Shown: positions 3,855 through 27,138 of the stretch, piece after piece | Layout of the letters: every line of letters begins with the position of its first letter | How positions within the stretch are numbered: position 1 is the first letter of the stretch | Origin: Thermodesulfobacteriota bacterium | GTDB lineage: Bacteria > Desulfobacterota > BSN033 > UBA1163 | Length of the DNA: 34,924 bases | Assembly (NCBI GenBank): GCA_030017685.1 | Contig: JASEHH010000032.1 | Span: forward strand, 1 to 34,924 | Direction of reading: 5' to 3' | Position numbers and translations under genes: made by a program | The notes under the pieces: generated by a model | Told to the model about the DNA's origin: nothing | The model's database searches: none | The model's input: only the letters and a program-made list of their open reading frames with translations

Positions 3855-3883
3855 ATTATAAGCCTCTCTTCGTAAAAAATCAA
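3855..3883 (-). promoter_or_regulatory. Sigma-70-type promoter of the lipoprotein gene
   Basis: On the minus strand, TTGATT (3883-3878), a 17-base spacer and a perfect TATAAT (3860-3855) lie about 33 bases upstream of the lipoprotein ATG. The -35 hexamer lies inside the 9-base direct repeat flanking the mobile cassette 3887-4509. Confidence 0.75.
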
Positions 3884-4021
3884 ATCGTTTACAATTCAGA
3901 CACTGGACTTCAGACGTTAGACATCAGATTTTTCTAATATAGCAAATTAACTCTTGTGGTGCATCTAACGCTTCTTTACATTTAATGGCGGAAAAATCTT
4001 CCAAAAAACAGGAAGATTTTT

Positions 4022-4097
4022 GTAGCCGCAGGCTTTAGCCTGCGATATTGTGCCCTGAATGGCACATTAAGGAACGCAACCTGAAGGTTGCGGCTAC
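4022..4097. repeat. GTAGCCGC inverted-end repeat, copy 1
   Basis: Begins GTAGCCGCAGGCTTTAGCC and ends AACCTGAAGGTTGCGGCTAC, so the outer GTAGCCGCA/TGCGGCTAC pair and each half is itself a hairpin. A second copy is at 6126-6216. It resembles REP/RAYT-type palindromes that are common in many bacterial genomes. Confidence 0.75.
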
Positions 4098-4197
4098 CTC
4101 ACAATTGCTCAACTCAGGCCTGAACGCACCTACCAATATGGCGATAAATTTATGACCCACTACACTCTATTCCACTCTTTTGAAATTCTTTCATATA

Positions 4198-4337
4198 TGA
4201 TGGAATCGTAAAAAGTCGTCATTCCCGTGAAAACGGGAATCCAGAGAATTCTAACTACTTGAAAATATCCCGCTAAGAGCGGGACTTGCGCAGGAATGAC
4301 TGATAATGGGATTTTCAGACTTTTTACGAAACCATCA
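4198..4337. mobile_element. MITE with TGATGG ends, copy a (nested)
   Basis: A 140-base element with about 20-base inverted ends (TGATGGAATCGTAAAAAGTC and, at the other end, GACTTTTTACGAAACCATCA). It is flanked by TATA on both sides (4194-4197 and 4338-4341), consistent with a 4-base target duplication. The inner part holds GTCATTCCCG/CGGGAAT hairpins. It is very similar to 25862-25995 and lies inside the older cassette 3887-4509. It has no coding capacity, so movement would need a transposase from elsewhere. Confidence 0.75.
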
Positions 4338-4527
4338 TATATACAAAAGCGTCATTTCCTCTGGTAGCTACCAGGCCGTTCGGCTGAGCTCACGTCGAAG
4401 CCCTCATCCATTTGTAATCTCTGGCCATTTATCTTTCTTCAGTCTAATGTCTGCCCGCAGCGCCAGCGCTTGCGCGGCGTGAGGTCTATAGTCTTACTGT
4501 CTGCATCATAGTTAAATCTTTTCTTGC

Positions 4528-4556
4528 TTGACGAATGAAGCCATTTTTTGTAGAGT
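4528..4556 (+). promoter_or_regulatory. Likely promoter of the acyl-CoA ligase gene
   Basis: TTGACG (4528-4533), a 17-base spacer and TAGAGT (4551-4556) give four of six bases in the -10 box and five of six in the -35 box. A start near 4563 would leave a short leader with AAGGGAGAG before the ATG at 4581. Confidence 0.55.
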
Positions 4557-4580: not shown

Positions 4581-6107
4581 ATGGATGTCGGACAAATTCT
4601 CACTTTTACTGCCCGTAAGTTCCCTCAAAGGATCGCGCTCATTTGCGAGCAAGAGCGGAAGACTTATCAGGAGTTTAATGATCGGACCAATCGACTTGCC
4701 AATGGAATGCTACGGCTGGGTTTAAGAAAAGGGGAGAAAGTCGCTGTTCTTCTCTTCAATTCGATCCCCCTCGTTGAGATTCTCTTTGCCTCGGCAAAGA
4801 TAGGCGGCGTCTTCACACCGATCAATTTCCGCTTTACCGCGGAGGAAGTTTTCTACATCCTGGACCATTCCGATGCCCGTTTTTTTATCTATGGAGAGGA
4901 GTTTTCAGGACTCGTCGAGAAGATCCGCTCCAGGCTTAAAAAAGTGGAGTTCTATTTCTCCATCGGGGAGCCCGCTCCTCCTTCCATTTTGAACTACGAA
5001 ACTTTTTTAAAAGAGTCCCTTTCTCAGGAACCGGATGTCCCCCTCTCTGAAAAGGATGAGTGCCAGGTGATGTATACCTCCGGCACGACGGGAAAACCGA
5101 AAGGGGCCCTCCTCACTCATGAGAATCTCCTCTGGAACCTTTTCAATACCATCCTGGGAAGGGAGGAGAAGGAAGGAGAGACTTCACTCGTCATCGGTCC
5201 CCTCTATCACACGGCGGCTCTCAATAACCATTTCCTCACCCGTGTGGCACTGGCCGGGACCAGCGTCCTCGTCAGGCATTTTGATCCGGAAAGGGTGATG
5301 GAGATCATCGGAAAGGAGAGGGTGACGATTATCTCAGGCGCTCCTTCGGCCTACCATTTGATACTCTCCCTTCCTGAGGGACGGTATGACACCCGTTCGA
5401 TCACCAAATGCACCACAGGGGCCTCCATCCTTCCGAATGAAACAAAGGAGAGACTGGCCAAACTCTTTCCCAATCTCTCTGGCATTTATGATGTCTATGG
5501 GTGCACCGAGGCTACGCCCTCGATTGCCATCCTCAAGGCGAAGGACTCTCTGAAAAAAAAGGAATGTGTGGGGCCGGCTGTTCCCTTCCTCGAAGTGAGA
5601 ATCGTGGATGATCAGGACCGAGATCTCCCAGTGGGAGAAGTAGGGGAGGTGATCTGCCGCGGTCCCAATGTGATGAAGGGATATTATAAGGATGAAGAGG
5701 CTACCCTAGAGGCTCTCCGGGGGGGATGGCTTCACACGGGGGACCTGGCCCGGATGGATGAGGAGGGATTCATCTATATCGTTGACCGGAAGAAGGATAT
5801 GATCGTCAGCGGCGGAGAGAATATCTATCCACGTGAGATTGAAGAGATCCTTTACAGTCATCCTAAGATTGAGGATGCGGCCATCATCGGAGTCCCTGAT
5901 CCGCTCTGGGGGGAATCGGTCAGGGCGGTCATCGTTTTGAAAAGGGGAGGGACGATGACAGAGGAGGAGGTGATCGAATACTGCAAAAGTCATCTTGCCA
6001 GTTACAAGAAGCCAAAGTCAGTGGAGTTCGTAGAAAGCCTTCCCAGAAATCCTTCGGGGAAGGTCCTTAAAACCGTATTGAGGGAGAGATTCTTGAAACG
6101 AAATTGA
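4581..6107 (+). CDS. AMP-forming acyl-CoA synthetase / carboxylate-CoA ligase
   Basis: A 508-residue ANL-superfamily enzyme that activates a carboxylic acid with ATP to an acyl-AMP and then forms the acyl-CoA. The AMP-binding P-loop YTSGTTGKPKG starts at about residue 165. DVYGCTEAT (A5 motif), GWLHTGDLARMDEEGF (A7) and DRKKDMIVSGGENIYPREIE (A8 hinge) follow. The catalytic lysine K494 lies in NPSGKVLK near the C terminus. The length fits medium- or long-chain fatty-acid ligases and related aryl/alicyclic acid ligases; the substrate cannot be read from the sequence. The start at 4581 has AAGGGAGAG seven bases upstream. It is the first gene of a plus-strand block that goes on with carboxylate transporters, thiolase and a dehydrogenase, so it probably activates the imported acid in the cytoplasm. 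Confidence 0.93.
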   Translation: MDVGQILTFTARKFPQRIALICEQERKTYQEFNDRTNRLANGMLRLGLRKGEKVAVLLFNSIPLVEILFASAKIGGVFTPINFRFTAEEVFYILDHSDARFFIYGEEFSGLVEKIRSRLKKVEFYFSIGEPAPPSILNYETFLKESLSQEPDVPLSEKDECQVMYTSGTTGKPKGALLTHENLLWNLFNTILGREEKEGETSLVIGPLYHTAALNNHFLTRVALAGTSVLVRHFDPERVMEIIGKERVTIISGAPSAYHLILSLPEGRYDTRSITKCTTGASILPNETKERLAKLFPNLSGIYDVYGCTEATPSIAILKAKDSLKKKECVGPAVPFLEVRIVDDQDRDLPVGEVGEVICRGPNVMKGYYKDEEATLEALRGGWLHTGDLARMDEEGFIYIVDRKKDMIVSGGENIYPREIEEILYSHPKIEDAAIIGVPDPLWGESVRAVIVLKRGGTMTEEEVIEYCKSHLASYKKPKSVEFVESLPRNPSGKVLKTVLRERFLKRN

Positions 6108-17901: not shown

Positions 17902-18840
17902 ATGGATTGTGGAAAGGTTCGTGACCAATTCTCTTCCCTGTTTGAGGGGGAATTGAAGCCGCTGGAGGAGGAGAAGGTCAGGGAGCATCTTGGTTCCTGC
18001 CAGGACTGTGAAAAGGAGTGGAAAGAGTTCAGACAGATGATGGGCTGGCTTCACGCGGTCGAAGAGGAGGAGGTGCCCGGAGGGTTTCTCTCAGAGTTAC
18101 AGAAGAAACGGGAAGAACGAAAGAGGAAAGAGAGACGGGGAGGGGATCAGTTCTTCCGTTCCATGAAGATCCCTGTCCAGGCGGTGGCCATGGTAATGAT
18201 TGTTTTTTTGGCCCTTTATCTCAGCAACATGGCGCCTTTTGAGATGCTTCAGAAGAGGGCTGTTGAAAAATCCGAGGTTCCACAATCAGAGGTCCAAAAG
18301 AAAGAGGCAGAGCCCGTTTCTCCGCCTCCTCTCAAGATCTATCCTGAGAAATATAGGGCAGAGGCAAAATCCTCTGTGGTTGATGAGAAGAAGAGCATTC
18401 CACCCGCTCCTCCTCTCAAAGAAGAGATGGCAACGGCTGAACCCCTTCGCCCGAAAGAGATGGTAAAGGCAGAAGCCCCTCCATTGGAAGAGAAGAAGAG
18501 AGAGAGCGAGAGGGTTGGAACAGTCATGATGTCTCTTGCTAAAAAACCAGCCCGGGAAATTACCTTGAAAATCAGTGACAGGGAGAAAGCCGTCTCACAG
18601 GTTCAGGAGTTGGCAAAACAATTGGGAGGAGAAATGGTCAGAGAAGATGGAAGTGTCCTCCTGGCTTCCTTGCCTGTCTCCTCCTATGGCGAATTTGAAA
18701 AAGGACTGGCCCAGATCGGTTCTTCTCCCGTGTTTCCCAAAGCCACCGTTCCAAAAGAGATGAAGGATGATTCAAGCCTTGCCGCGGGAACGAAGAGCAA
18801 GGAACCCATTTTCATCCGCATTCACCTTGTCCCGGAATGA
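17902..18840 (+). CDS. Zinc-finger membrane anti-sigma factor
   Basis: A protein of about 312 residues. Its N terminus (MDCGKVRDQFSSLFEGEL) is a ZAS anti-sigma domain with Cys, 25 residues, then HxxxCxxC (REHLGSCQDCEKEW). One membrane helix follows (VQAVAMVMIVFLALYLSNM, about residues 92-112). A long Glu/Lys/Pro-rich linker leads to a small periplasmic domain of about 90 residues (EITLKISDREKAVSQVQELAKQL to the end), which resembles DUF4349/DUF2275-type tails of other anti-sigma proteins, with low certainty. It should hold the sigma factor encoded just upstream at the membrane and release it on an envelope signal. I choose the ATG at 17902, which has GGAG eight bases upstream and the usual ZAS opening; an in-frame ATG at 17884 would add six residues. 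Confidence 0.88.
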   Translation: MDCGKVRDQFSSLFEGELKPLEEEKVREHLGSCQDCEKEWKEFRQMMGWLHAVEEEEVPGGFLSELQKKREERKRKERRGGDQFFRSMKIPVQAVAMVMIVFLALYLSNMAPFEMLQKRAVEKSEVPQSEVQKKEAEPVSPPPLKIYPEKYRAEAKSSVVDEKKSIPPAPPLKEEMATAEPLRPKEMVKAEAPPLEEKKRESERVGTVMMSLAKKPAREITLKISDREKAVSQVQELAKQLGGEMVREDGSVLLASLPVSSYGEFEKGLAQIGSSPVFPKATVPKEMKDDSSLAAGTKSKEPIFIRIHLVPE

Positions 18841-18842
18841 TG

Positions 18843-19092
18843 ATGTGATTCAGACATTAAGACTATAGACCTCACGCCGCGCAAGCGCTGGCGCTGCGGG
18901 CAGACATTAGACTGAAAAATAGAAATAGCCAGAGATGACACAAAGATAGAGGACTGGCACCTGCGGCAGGAGCAGTGGAACCGGCACTCTTGGTATATAC
19001 GAAAAAATTTCAAAAGAGTGAAATATAGAATTAATTTCATACTTTGGGAAGCCTGATGTCTAACGTCTAAAGTCCAGTGTCTGAATTGCAAC
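18843..19092 (+). mobile_element. Decayed IVP-like cassette, copy 2
   Basis: A 250-base element flanked by perfect 9-base direct repeats GGAATGATG (18834-18842 and 19093-19101). Left end ATGTGATTCAGACATTAAGAC; right end GTCTAAAGTCCAGTGTCTG followed by AATTGCAAC. The left arm holds a GCGCAAGCGCTGGCGC palindrome identical to that of copy 1. The internal frame is dead: the position matching the MARDY start reads ATA GCC AGA GAT GAC (18925 onward). The left duplication overlaps the stop codon of the anti-sigma gene, so the insertion landed directly behind it. Together with the promoter at 19110 it explains most of the 393-base gap to the next gene. Confidence 0.8.
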
Positions 19093-19109
19093 GGAATGAT
19101 GGTCTCTGG

Positions 19110-19138
19110 TTGACTTATCGGAACAATCCTTGTATAAA
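19110..19138 (+). promoter_or_regulatory. Sigma-70-type promoter of the LysM/NlpC operon
   Basis: TTGACT (19110-19115), a 17-base spacer and TATAAA (19133-19138), about 95 bases before the ATG of the LysM/NlpC gene. The -35 begins 9 bases beyond the right target duplication of the cassette 18843-19092. Confidence 0.7.
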
Positions 19139-26797: not shown

Positions 26798-26825
26798 GTT
26801 ATCATATTCATAAAATACTTGTCAA
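26798..26825 (-). promoter_or_regulatory. Possible promoter of the isoaspartate methyltransferase gene
   Basis: On the minus strand, a perfect TTGACA (26825-26820), a 16-base spacer and GATAAC (26803-26798, four of six). Five bases of the -35 are part of the direct repeat left by the cassette insertion at 26831. A transcript from here would have almost no leader before the ATG at 26788. Confidence 0.45.
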
Positions 26826-26830
26826 TTCTT

Positions 26831-27074
26831 TGTGATTCAGACATTAGACCATACCTGCCTACCGCAGGCAGGGACTCCAGACATCAGACCGAAAGGGAGG
26901 AAATGGCCAGAGATTACACAAAAGGGTTTATAAAGAAATTTGAATACTTAGCCCCCAATAGACATGAAGAATTATGGACAAAAGCTCAAGAACGTTTGAG
27001 AAGACTGCAAGGCTTAATTTCCTATATAGAAAAGTCTGGTGTCTAAAGTCTGAAGTCCAGTGTCTGAATTGCGG
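26831..27074 (+). mobile_element. IVP-like cassette, copy 3 (most intact)
   Basis: A 244-base element flanked by GTCAATTCTT on both sides (26821-26830 and 27074-27083; counted as a 9-base target duplication, TCAATTCTT). Left end TGTGATTCAGACATTAGAC and ACTCCAGACATCAGAC; right end GTCTAAAGTCTGAAGTCCAG and TGTCTGAATTGCG. The arms are imperfect inverted copies made of repeated TTAGAC/CAGAC units. The left arm contains CCTGCCTACCGCAGGCAGG where the other two copies have a different palindrome. A short frame with GGGAGG before its ATG runs through the body and its stop codon is part of the right arm. Most of the gap between the methyltransferase and TPR genes is explained by this element and the repeat at 27139. 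Confidence 0.8.
26903..27046 (+). CDS. Short MARDY protein, probable four-helix-bundle (IVP) remnant
   Basis: A 47-residue frame inside cassette copy 3, with GGGAGG six bases or so upstream of its ATG. It starts MARDYTKGFIKKFEYL and ends RLRRLQGLISYIEKSGV. Many four-helix-bundle proteins of the S23/23S rRNA intervening-sequence type start MARDYKK and end in a helix of the form LxGLIxYLxxS, but they are about 115-125 residues long. I infer that the middle has been deleted in frame here. Copy 1 (3887-4509) keeps traces of the same start and the same end with more sequence between them. Whether the short protein is made or does anything is unknown. An upstream in-frame extension to 26819 is not believed. 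Confidence 0.5.
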   Translation: MARDYTKGFIKKFEYLAPNRHEELWTKAQERLRRLQGLISYIEKSGV

Positions 27075-27138
27075 TCAATTCTTGACAATCCTTCAATCTT
27101 TCTGATAGGTTTTAAACATCTCCTTTGATTCCGACCTT

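Follow-up and report, generated by a model that had tools for sequence, protein, structure and literature searches.

Short CAGAC-family elements in a Thermodesulfobacteriota genome and the heptamer arms of free-standing IVP genes

What are the short elements with inverted, repetitive ends that occur three times in a 34,924-nt stretch of Thermodesulfobacteriota DNA (contig JASEHH010000032.1; hereafter the window), and by what means did they arrive there? A sequence-only reading had proposed that they form a non-autonomous mobile cassette family with inverted ends and 9-bp target duplications, spreading a gene of the kind found within intervening sequences of 23S rRNA (IVP), whose frame begins with MARDY. 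Direct reading bears out the three elements, their inverted ends, arms and duplications (Table 1), the arms being built of units of the form NNYAGAC with a period of 7 nt. The MARDY start or its decayed equivalent is likewise where it had been placed, with ATG in C219c, ATA in place of ATG in C219a, and a minus-strand frame in C219b that is interrupted by stops and by a nested repeat; the stop codon of C219c is indeed part of its right arm, and no frame of at least 60 aa overlaps positions 3880–4515, the region of C219b.

Table 1. Coordinates of the three CAGAC-family elements and their flanking features in the window
Feature	Position	Strand	Basis or remark
C219c, CAGAC-family element	26831..27074	+	Direct reading and genome layout
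Left target duplication of C219c, TCAATTCTT	26822..26830	.	Direct reading; tenth base also matching
Right target duplication of C219c, TCAATTCTT	27075..27083	.	Direct reading
47-codon MARDY frame in C219c, internally deleted IVP gene	26903..27046	+	TAA inside right arm
TTGACA, possible -35 box right of C219c	27082..27087	+	Off modal spacing; without -10 box by the rule used
C219a, CAGAC-family element	18843..19092	+	Empty sites in G007 and G004
Left target duplication of C219a, GGAATGATG	18834..18842	.	Direct reading
Right target duplication of C219a, GGAATGATG	19093..19101	.	Direct reading
Promoter-like TTGACT-17-TATAAA beyond C219a	19110..19138	+	Conserved at empty sites
C219b, CAGAC-family element with another repeat nested inside	3887..4509	-	Direct reading and genome layout
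Target duplication copy of C219b (7/9)	3878..3886	.	Direct reading
Target duplication copy of C219b (7/9)	4510..4518	.	Direct reading
Promoter-like TTGACG-17-TAGAGT beyond C219b, ahead of the gene at 4581	4528..4556	+	Direct reading and promoter rule

The repeat nested in C219b (window 4200–4340) belongs to a family with ends like TGATGGTTTCGTAAAAAGTC...GACTTTTTACGA, whose further occurrences (L006, L012 and L042) include two other CAGAC copies and, at L042, a position next to a truncated IVP gene. The left arm of many CAGAC copies contains a REP-like hairpin, CACGCCGCGCAAGCGCTGGCGCTGCGG (window 18870–18900), which others lack; in C126 it is inverted and lies within the right arm.

A mobile family with 9-bp target duplications

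A BLAST search of the window genome (3.96 Mb in 326 contigs, 92% complete) with one element copy as query returned 22 copies on 19 contigs, three of them in the window and one truncated (C292), a number at which the repetition is not due to chance. Their termini are conserved, the ends reading CTGTGATTCAGACA...TGTCTGAATTGCAA or close variants. Direct repeats were scored around 31 curated copies, 20 from the window genome and 11 from relatives, with C55 dropped and the truncated C292 set aside. The best repeat scores at least 7 in 20 of the 31, as compared to 2.15% of cross pairs, and of these 20 copies 18 have a left duplication starting 11–14 nt ahead of TGATTC and 17 have a right one starting 3–4 nt past GAATT, a near-constant register that points to a 9-bp duplication. 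The eleven copies scoring below 7 are C68, C126 (its right end mis-set in that scoring), C219b (6.5; seven of nine bases), C250, L053, L067, L068, L049, L050, L057 (6.5) and L066. Further copies with direct repeats, as the proposal of a duplicating family implied, are present in the genome, and the family shows staggered 9-bp insertion.

Sites lacking the element were sought by joining the flanks of 16 window-genome copies without the second duplication and searching ten genomes of the genus, from which 20 matching regions were aligned. Among these, uninterrupted sites are clear for seven loci (C110, C208, C60, C288, C219a, C271 and C23), and C174 has an uninterrupted site with a few bases missing. 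Some of the 20 regions depart from a plain empty site: G007:C191 (L151) and G004:C68 (L153) hold other inserts, and G003:C99 (L154) has a doubled duplication. The CAGAC family is mobile, and on this point the congeners uphold the sequence-only reading.

The other small inserts, L151 and L153, have short duplications of their own and lie, in sister genomes, at the promoter-upstream spots that CAGAC copies take up. The doubled target duplication in G003:C99 has a single base between its copies (ATCTTTCCA A ATCTTTCCA) and is possibly an excision scar.

IVP descent and the heptamer arms of IVP genes

What did the ancestor of these elements carry? The 47-aa frame of the window, taken alone, has no Pfam or NCBIfam match at E 1, so that its IVP identity is drawn from DNA relatives. 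The most informative of these is the near-full-length element in G011:C68 (L048), which has the same ends as the window copies and an IVP frame interrupted by one stop; the 87-aa piece before the stop codon matches PF05635 (23S_rRNA_IVP) at E 6.4e-28, and positions 97–240 of the C219c query are 87% identical to this element over 144 nt of DNA. The presence of an IVP frame between the same ends in a near-full-length relative marks the window copies as internally deleted derivatives, and at the level of sequence comparison the IVP descent of the CAGAC elements is established. The expected profile match to the inner frames is therefore found in the relative but not in the window frame itself. The picture of a non-autonomous, IVP-derived family stands, its inverted ends and 9-bp duplications included, but a working IVP gene is not what the window copies spread; CAGAC arms, judged by eye, surround none of the 16 PF05635 matches in the window genome.

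Most of these 16 genes instead lie between inverted arms of their own with a period near 7. Across 44 IVP loci, a count that leaves out L039 and includes a mis-registered and low-scoring L041, the arm score exceeds the 95th percentile of 1,892 cross pairs in 36. A profile search of GTDB genomes then extended the comparison to the 80 top-ranked named loci among at least 590, and 79 of the 80 were usable: inverted period-7 arms around free-standing IVP genes exceed the cross-pair 95th percentile at 63 of the 79, as compared to 2 of 148 displaced controls. The loci span many phyla and include one archaeon; 16 of the 79 fail. In the arms of the 63 loci, which were selected by complementarity and not by period, the match is 0.66 at lag 7 and 0.62 at lag 14 versus 0.24–0.32 at other lags, and unselected flanks give 0.377 versus 0.269 at lag 7. 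When 53 arms from 102 loci were retained on the basis of score and period, the left-arm strand proved rich in G in 48 of them and rich in C in 4.

The heptamer itself varies between IVP genes and is common to both arms of one element. Among 82 loci kept of 118, the arm motif is common (more than 0.2 of 6-mers) in all 12 pairs with at least 70% protein identity but in only 96 of 3,286 pairs below 60%, indicating that arm motifs turn over fast and yet stay matched within an element. A consensus common to the heptamers is weak: its information is 4.04, and the highest value among 20 shuffled runs is 3.83. Aligned arms contain a median of 5.3 units (10–90% range, 4.4–8.4); a strict set of five heptamers, matched to a pentameric protein, was considered and rejected, as the unit number is not fixed. 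Free-standing IVP genes thus generally lie between inverted arms of 7-nt units, an architecture of which the TTAGAC/CAGAC arms are an instance. We found no description of heptamer arms around IVP genes in the available text of five papers (PMC4990558, PMC4692102, PMC4679880, PMC2672173, PMC8700078) or in searches of the open-access literature, outside which fall preprints and most subscription papers.

Two further features of IVP loci deserve mention. Among 92 of the loci, 46 have an upstream frame on the same strand, and there the left arm often starts close to the upstream stop codon, at a median of -1 nt and between -15 and +25 nt in 28 of the 46, which is a purely descriptive count. L134 and L135 (G229:C1) are clusters of near-identical IVP genes spaced by about 0.5–0.7 kb, and several of these genes contain an in-frame TAG.

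Sigma70-like promoters beside the CAGAC copies

Outward-reading, sigma70-like promoters were scanned for within 75 nt of 32 CAGAC copies, relatives included. At least one side has such a promoter in 22 of the 32 (right, 16; left, 11), among them 14 of 21 window-genome copies, and in ten neither side gives a match. The corresponding controls are 0/32 on each side for windows farther out, 1.6 and 1.3 for shuffles, and 3 and 0 for promoters facing the element; the either-side background among 54,273 random intergenic positions in the loci examined is 7.4%. The L044 arm family of the same genome has a promoter in one of 24 copies, even with a wider 130-nt window. The promoter beyond the element is also present in the relative for C219a, C271, C174 and C60.

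The spacing is narrow. On the right, the -35 box starts 17–23 nt from GAATT in 15 of 32 copies, where 0.75% is expected (binomial p 6e-24, a value that ignores the copies' shared ancestry); on the left it starts at 17–21 nt in eight and at 7–11 nt in four. A typical -35 box lies about 8 nt beyond the edge of the duplication. TTGAC alone, which resembles the element end, was considered as the target, but a full promoter fits better, given that a TTGAC within 14 nt of the duplication is followed by a -10 box in 16 of 19 instances versus 34 of 107 control TTGACs. Such a pattern would arise if the insertion machinery favoured DNA just upstream of sigma70 promoters, with the duplication edge some 8 nt from the -35 box. 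Alternatively, selection may have produced it, insertions elsewhere having been lost and those upstream of promoters tolerated. The different inserts that congeners in G007 and G004 hold at two of the promoter sites suggest that the spot may simply tolerate insertions; the narrow range of -35 distances on both sides and the near absence of promoters from the L044 arm family speak against selection as the explanation, which we regard as possible but on the doubtful side. If it reflects targeting, a fixed step from sigma70 promoters would be an unusual address for a bacterial element; among the titles and abstract openings listed by one search of the open-access literature, no such case appeared.

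Movement and comparison with known systems

Arms without an intact gene are not peculiar to the CAGAC family. When the arms of 12 IVP loci of the window genome were searched against that genome, the L044/L045 arm family proved to comprise two IVP genes without stops and 24 viewed copies that keep both arms but lack a full IVP gene, the match extending over some 0.1–0.2 kb. In Nostoc plasmids a given gene junction may have an IVP cassette in one plasmid and none in another; a plasmid of Nostoc sp. ATCC 53789 (L294) has arms without an IVP gene where relatives have the cassette or nothing. A Calothrix cassette separates an integrase gene from its neighbour and, judged by eye, replaces about ten bases without duplication; in all, two cyanobacterial cassettes seem by eye to replace some target bases in this way. 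Flanking direct repeats are no more frequent than expected at 92 other IVP loci (of 117), with three of at least 8 nt seen versus 3.2 expected and none of at least 9 nt versus 0.9 expected; suggestive single cases (L122) were excluded from evidence. Given this and the cyanobacterial replacements, the 9-bp reaction is perhaps no general property of IVP cassettes, and a transposase acting in trans may move the CAGAC copies.

We consider it probable that the window elements descend from an IVP cassette as internally deleted, MITE-like derivatives, moved in trans, with their arms as binding sites and an insertion preference for promoters. In the ancestor, inverted arms of some five 7-nt units would have enclosed a gene of the 23S_rRNA_IVP family, whose product is a four-helix bundle; its derivatives would move as DNA through a staggered-cut, transposase-type reaction supplied in trans; and the heptamers would form an array of binding sites, recognised most likely by IVP, a pentamer in crystals. 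A rival account, which we hold to be quite possible though short of probable, makes them ordinary MITEs of a DDE transposase with the same ends, the IVP remnant being a passenger and the heptamers irrelevant to movement. The short terminal inverted repeats, target duplications, many copies and lack of a transposase in the copies are all MITE-type features, and the absence of a duplication excess at other IVP loci fits this account as well. However, between CAGAC end pairs in four incomplete genomes (G000, G011, G060, G095), searched by end patterns and frames rather than profiles, no transposase gene is visible; the pairs are at most 0.9 kb apart, and one of 861 bp in G060:C11 spans a 191-aa frame that reads as LemA-like. 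Also against it are the arms-only derivatives that a second arm family has beside stop-free IVP copies, and the joint occurrence of arms and IVP at 63 of 79 loci.

Could IVP cassettes instead be self-sufficient, an IVP pentamer reading the heptamer arms and performing excision and insertion, alone or with a host enzyme? The copies read contain only IVP remnants or unrelated nested repeats, and IVP or its remnant is the sole gene seen between their arms; among close relatives the arm motif follows the IVP lineage. Ends of a second IVP family in four other genomes pair at 0.1–0.5 kb, with one exception in G017:C33, where they are 1,424 bp apart, with the outer end inside a transporter-like gene, and no transposase-like frame was recognised. 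Five polar residues (Q34, S41, N45, E48 and E71) are invariant in 53 IVP sequences. An AlphaFold model of an IVP from the window genome (L031, with A2; pLDDT 96.6) matches 2gsc and 2rld, which have five chains each. Yet no nuclease motif of a known kind was recognised in IVP, and its best fold matches in the PDB are other IVP structures and Avd, an accessory protein of retroelements and itself a pentamer; self-sufficiency seems unlikely to us. The weaker matches to Avd, including a retroelement complex, might also hint at an RNA-based route that uses a reverse transcriptase. The fixed register of the 9-bp duplication instead indicates that DNA is cut, and among the 22 genomes that have at least five IVP matches, are at least 90% complete and appear in both searches, 9 lack any RVT_1 match, on which grounds a general need for reverse transcriptase was rejected; we judge an RNA route highly improbable.

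The function and origin of IVP-type intervening sequences were described as unclear in 2016, with transposition cited as a hypothesis of 1990 (PMC4990558). A mobile family set mostly at a fixed step upstream of promoters bears on this old question of IVP mobility, and the empty sites, target duplications and general architecture render the transposition hypothesis testable. The heptamer-arm rule, moreover, offers a probable DNA or RNA target for a protein family of unclear function. A far-reaching extension, which we advance tentatively and would sooner doubt than assert, is that free-standing IVP genes form a large class of minimal mobile elements in bacteria and at least one archaeon, in which one pentameric protein reads its own lineage-specific arms, the heptamers of the literature and the IVP inserts of rRNA being relics and one branch having become promoter-addressed and transposable.

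How do these elements relate to known systems? The intervening sequence of Coxiella 23S rRNA, with its IVP/S23 gene, measures 428 nt (PMC4990558). Such sequences resemble the present loci in protein family, in complementary ends around the gene and in size, whereas the CAGAC and IVP loci are free-standing, lying between protein genes or before promoters and outside 23S rRNA. A 23S context was tried and rejected, as L134 has no Rfam match and E. coli 23S rRNA has no BLAST match (E 1e-5) to the IVP loci examined; the link is by protein family only. MITEs share with the CAGAC elements their small size, copy number, inverted ends, duplications and lack of a transposase, but the CAGAC parent would carry IVP in place of a transposase, and the family is set apart by arms of 7-nt units and by its promoter spacing; unlike insertion sequences, the CAGAC copies read encode no transposase. 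Diversity-generating retroelements have in Avd a protein with the fold of IVP, although three IVP proteins scanned with the Avd model all fell below its cut-off; they differ in that the CAGAC elements, at 0.2–0.6 kb, have no reverse transcriptase, nor do the nine IVP-rich genomes have an RVT_1 match.

Heptamer repeats have been reported elsewhere. The GGGAATC repeats of Xanthomonas and Nostoc form intergenic arrays, with 70 convergent pairs in one genome, and are generally not associated with mobile elements; the term S23 does not appear in the text available (PMC4692102). The TAACTGA repeats of Beggiatoaceae and cyanobacteria are intergenic and nearly all direct, with one inverted, and the available text contains neither "four helix" nor "23S rRNA" (PMC4679880). 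Intergenic heptamer arrays and convergent pairs are what the first share with IVP arms; the second share intergenic heptamers in several phyla but, being nearly all direct, differ from the inverted arms. Cyanobacterial short repeats and the heptamers of tRNA-Leu introns may be related too. The heptamer-arm rule may explain heptamer repeats reported in other bacteria.
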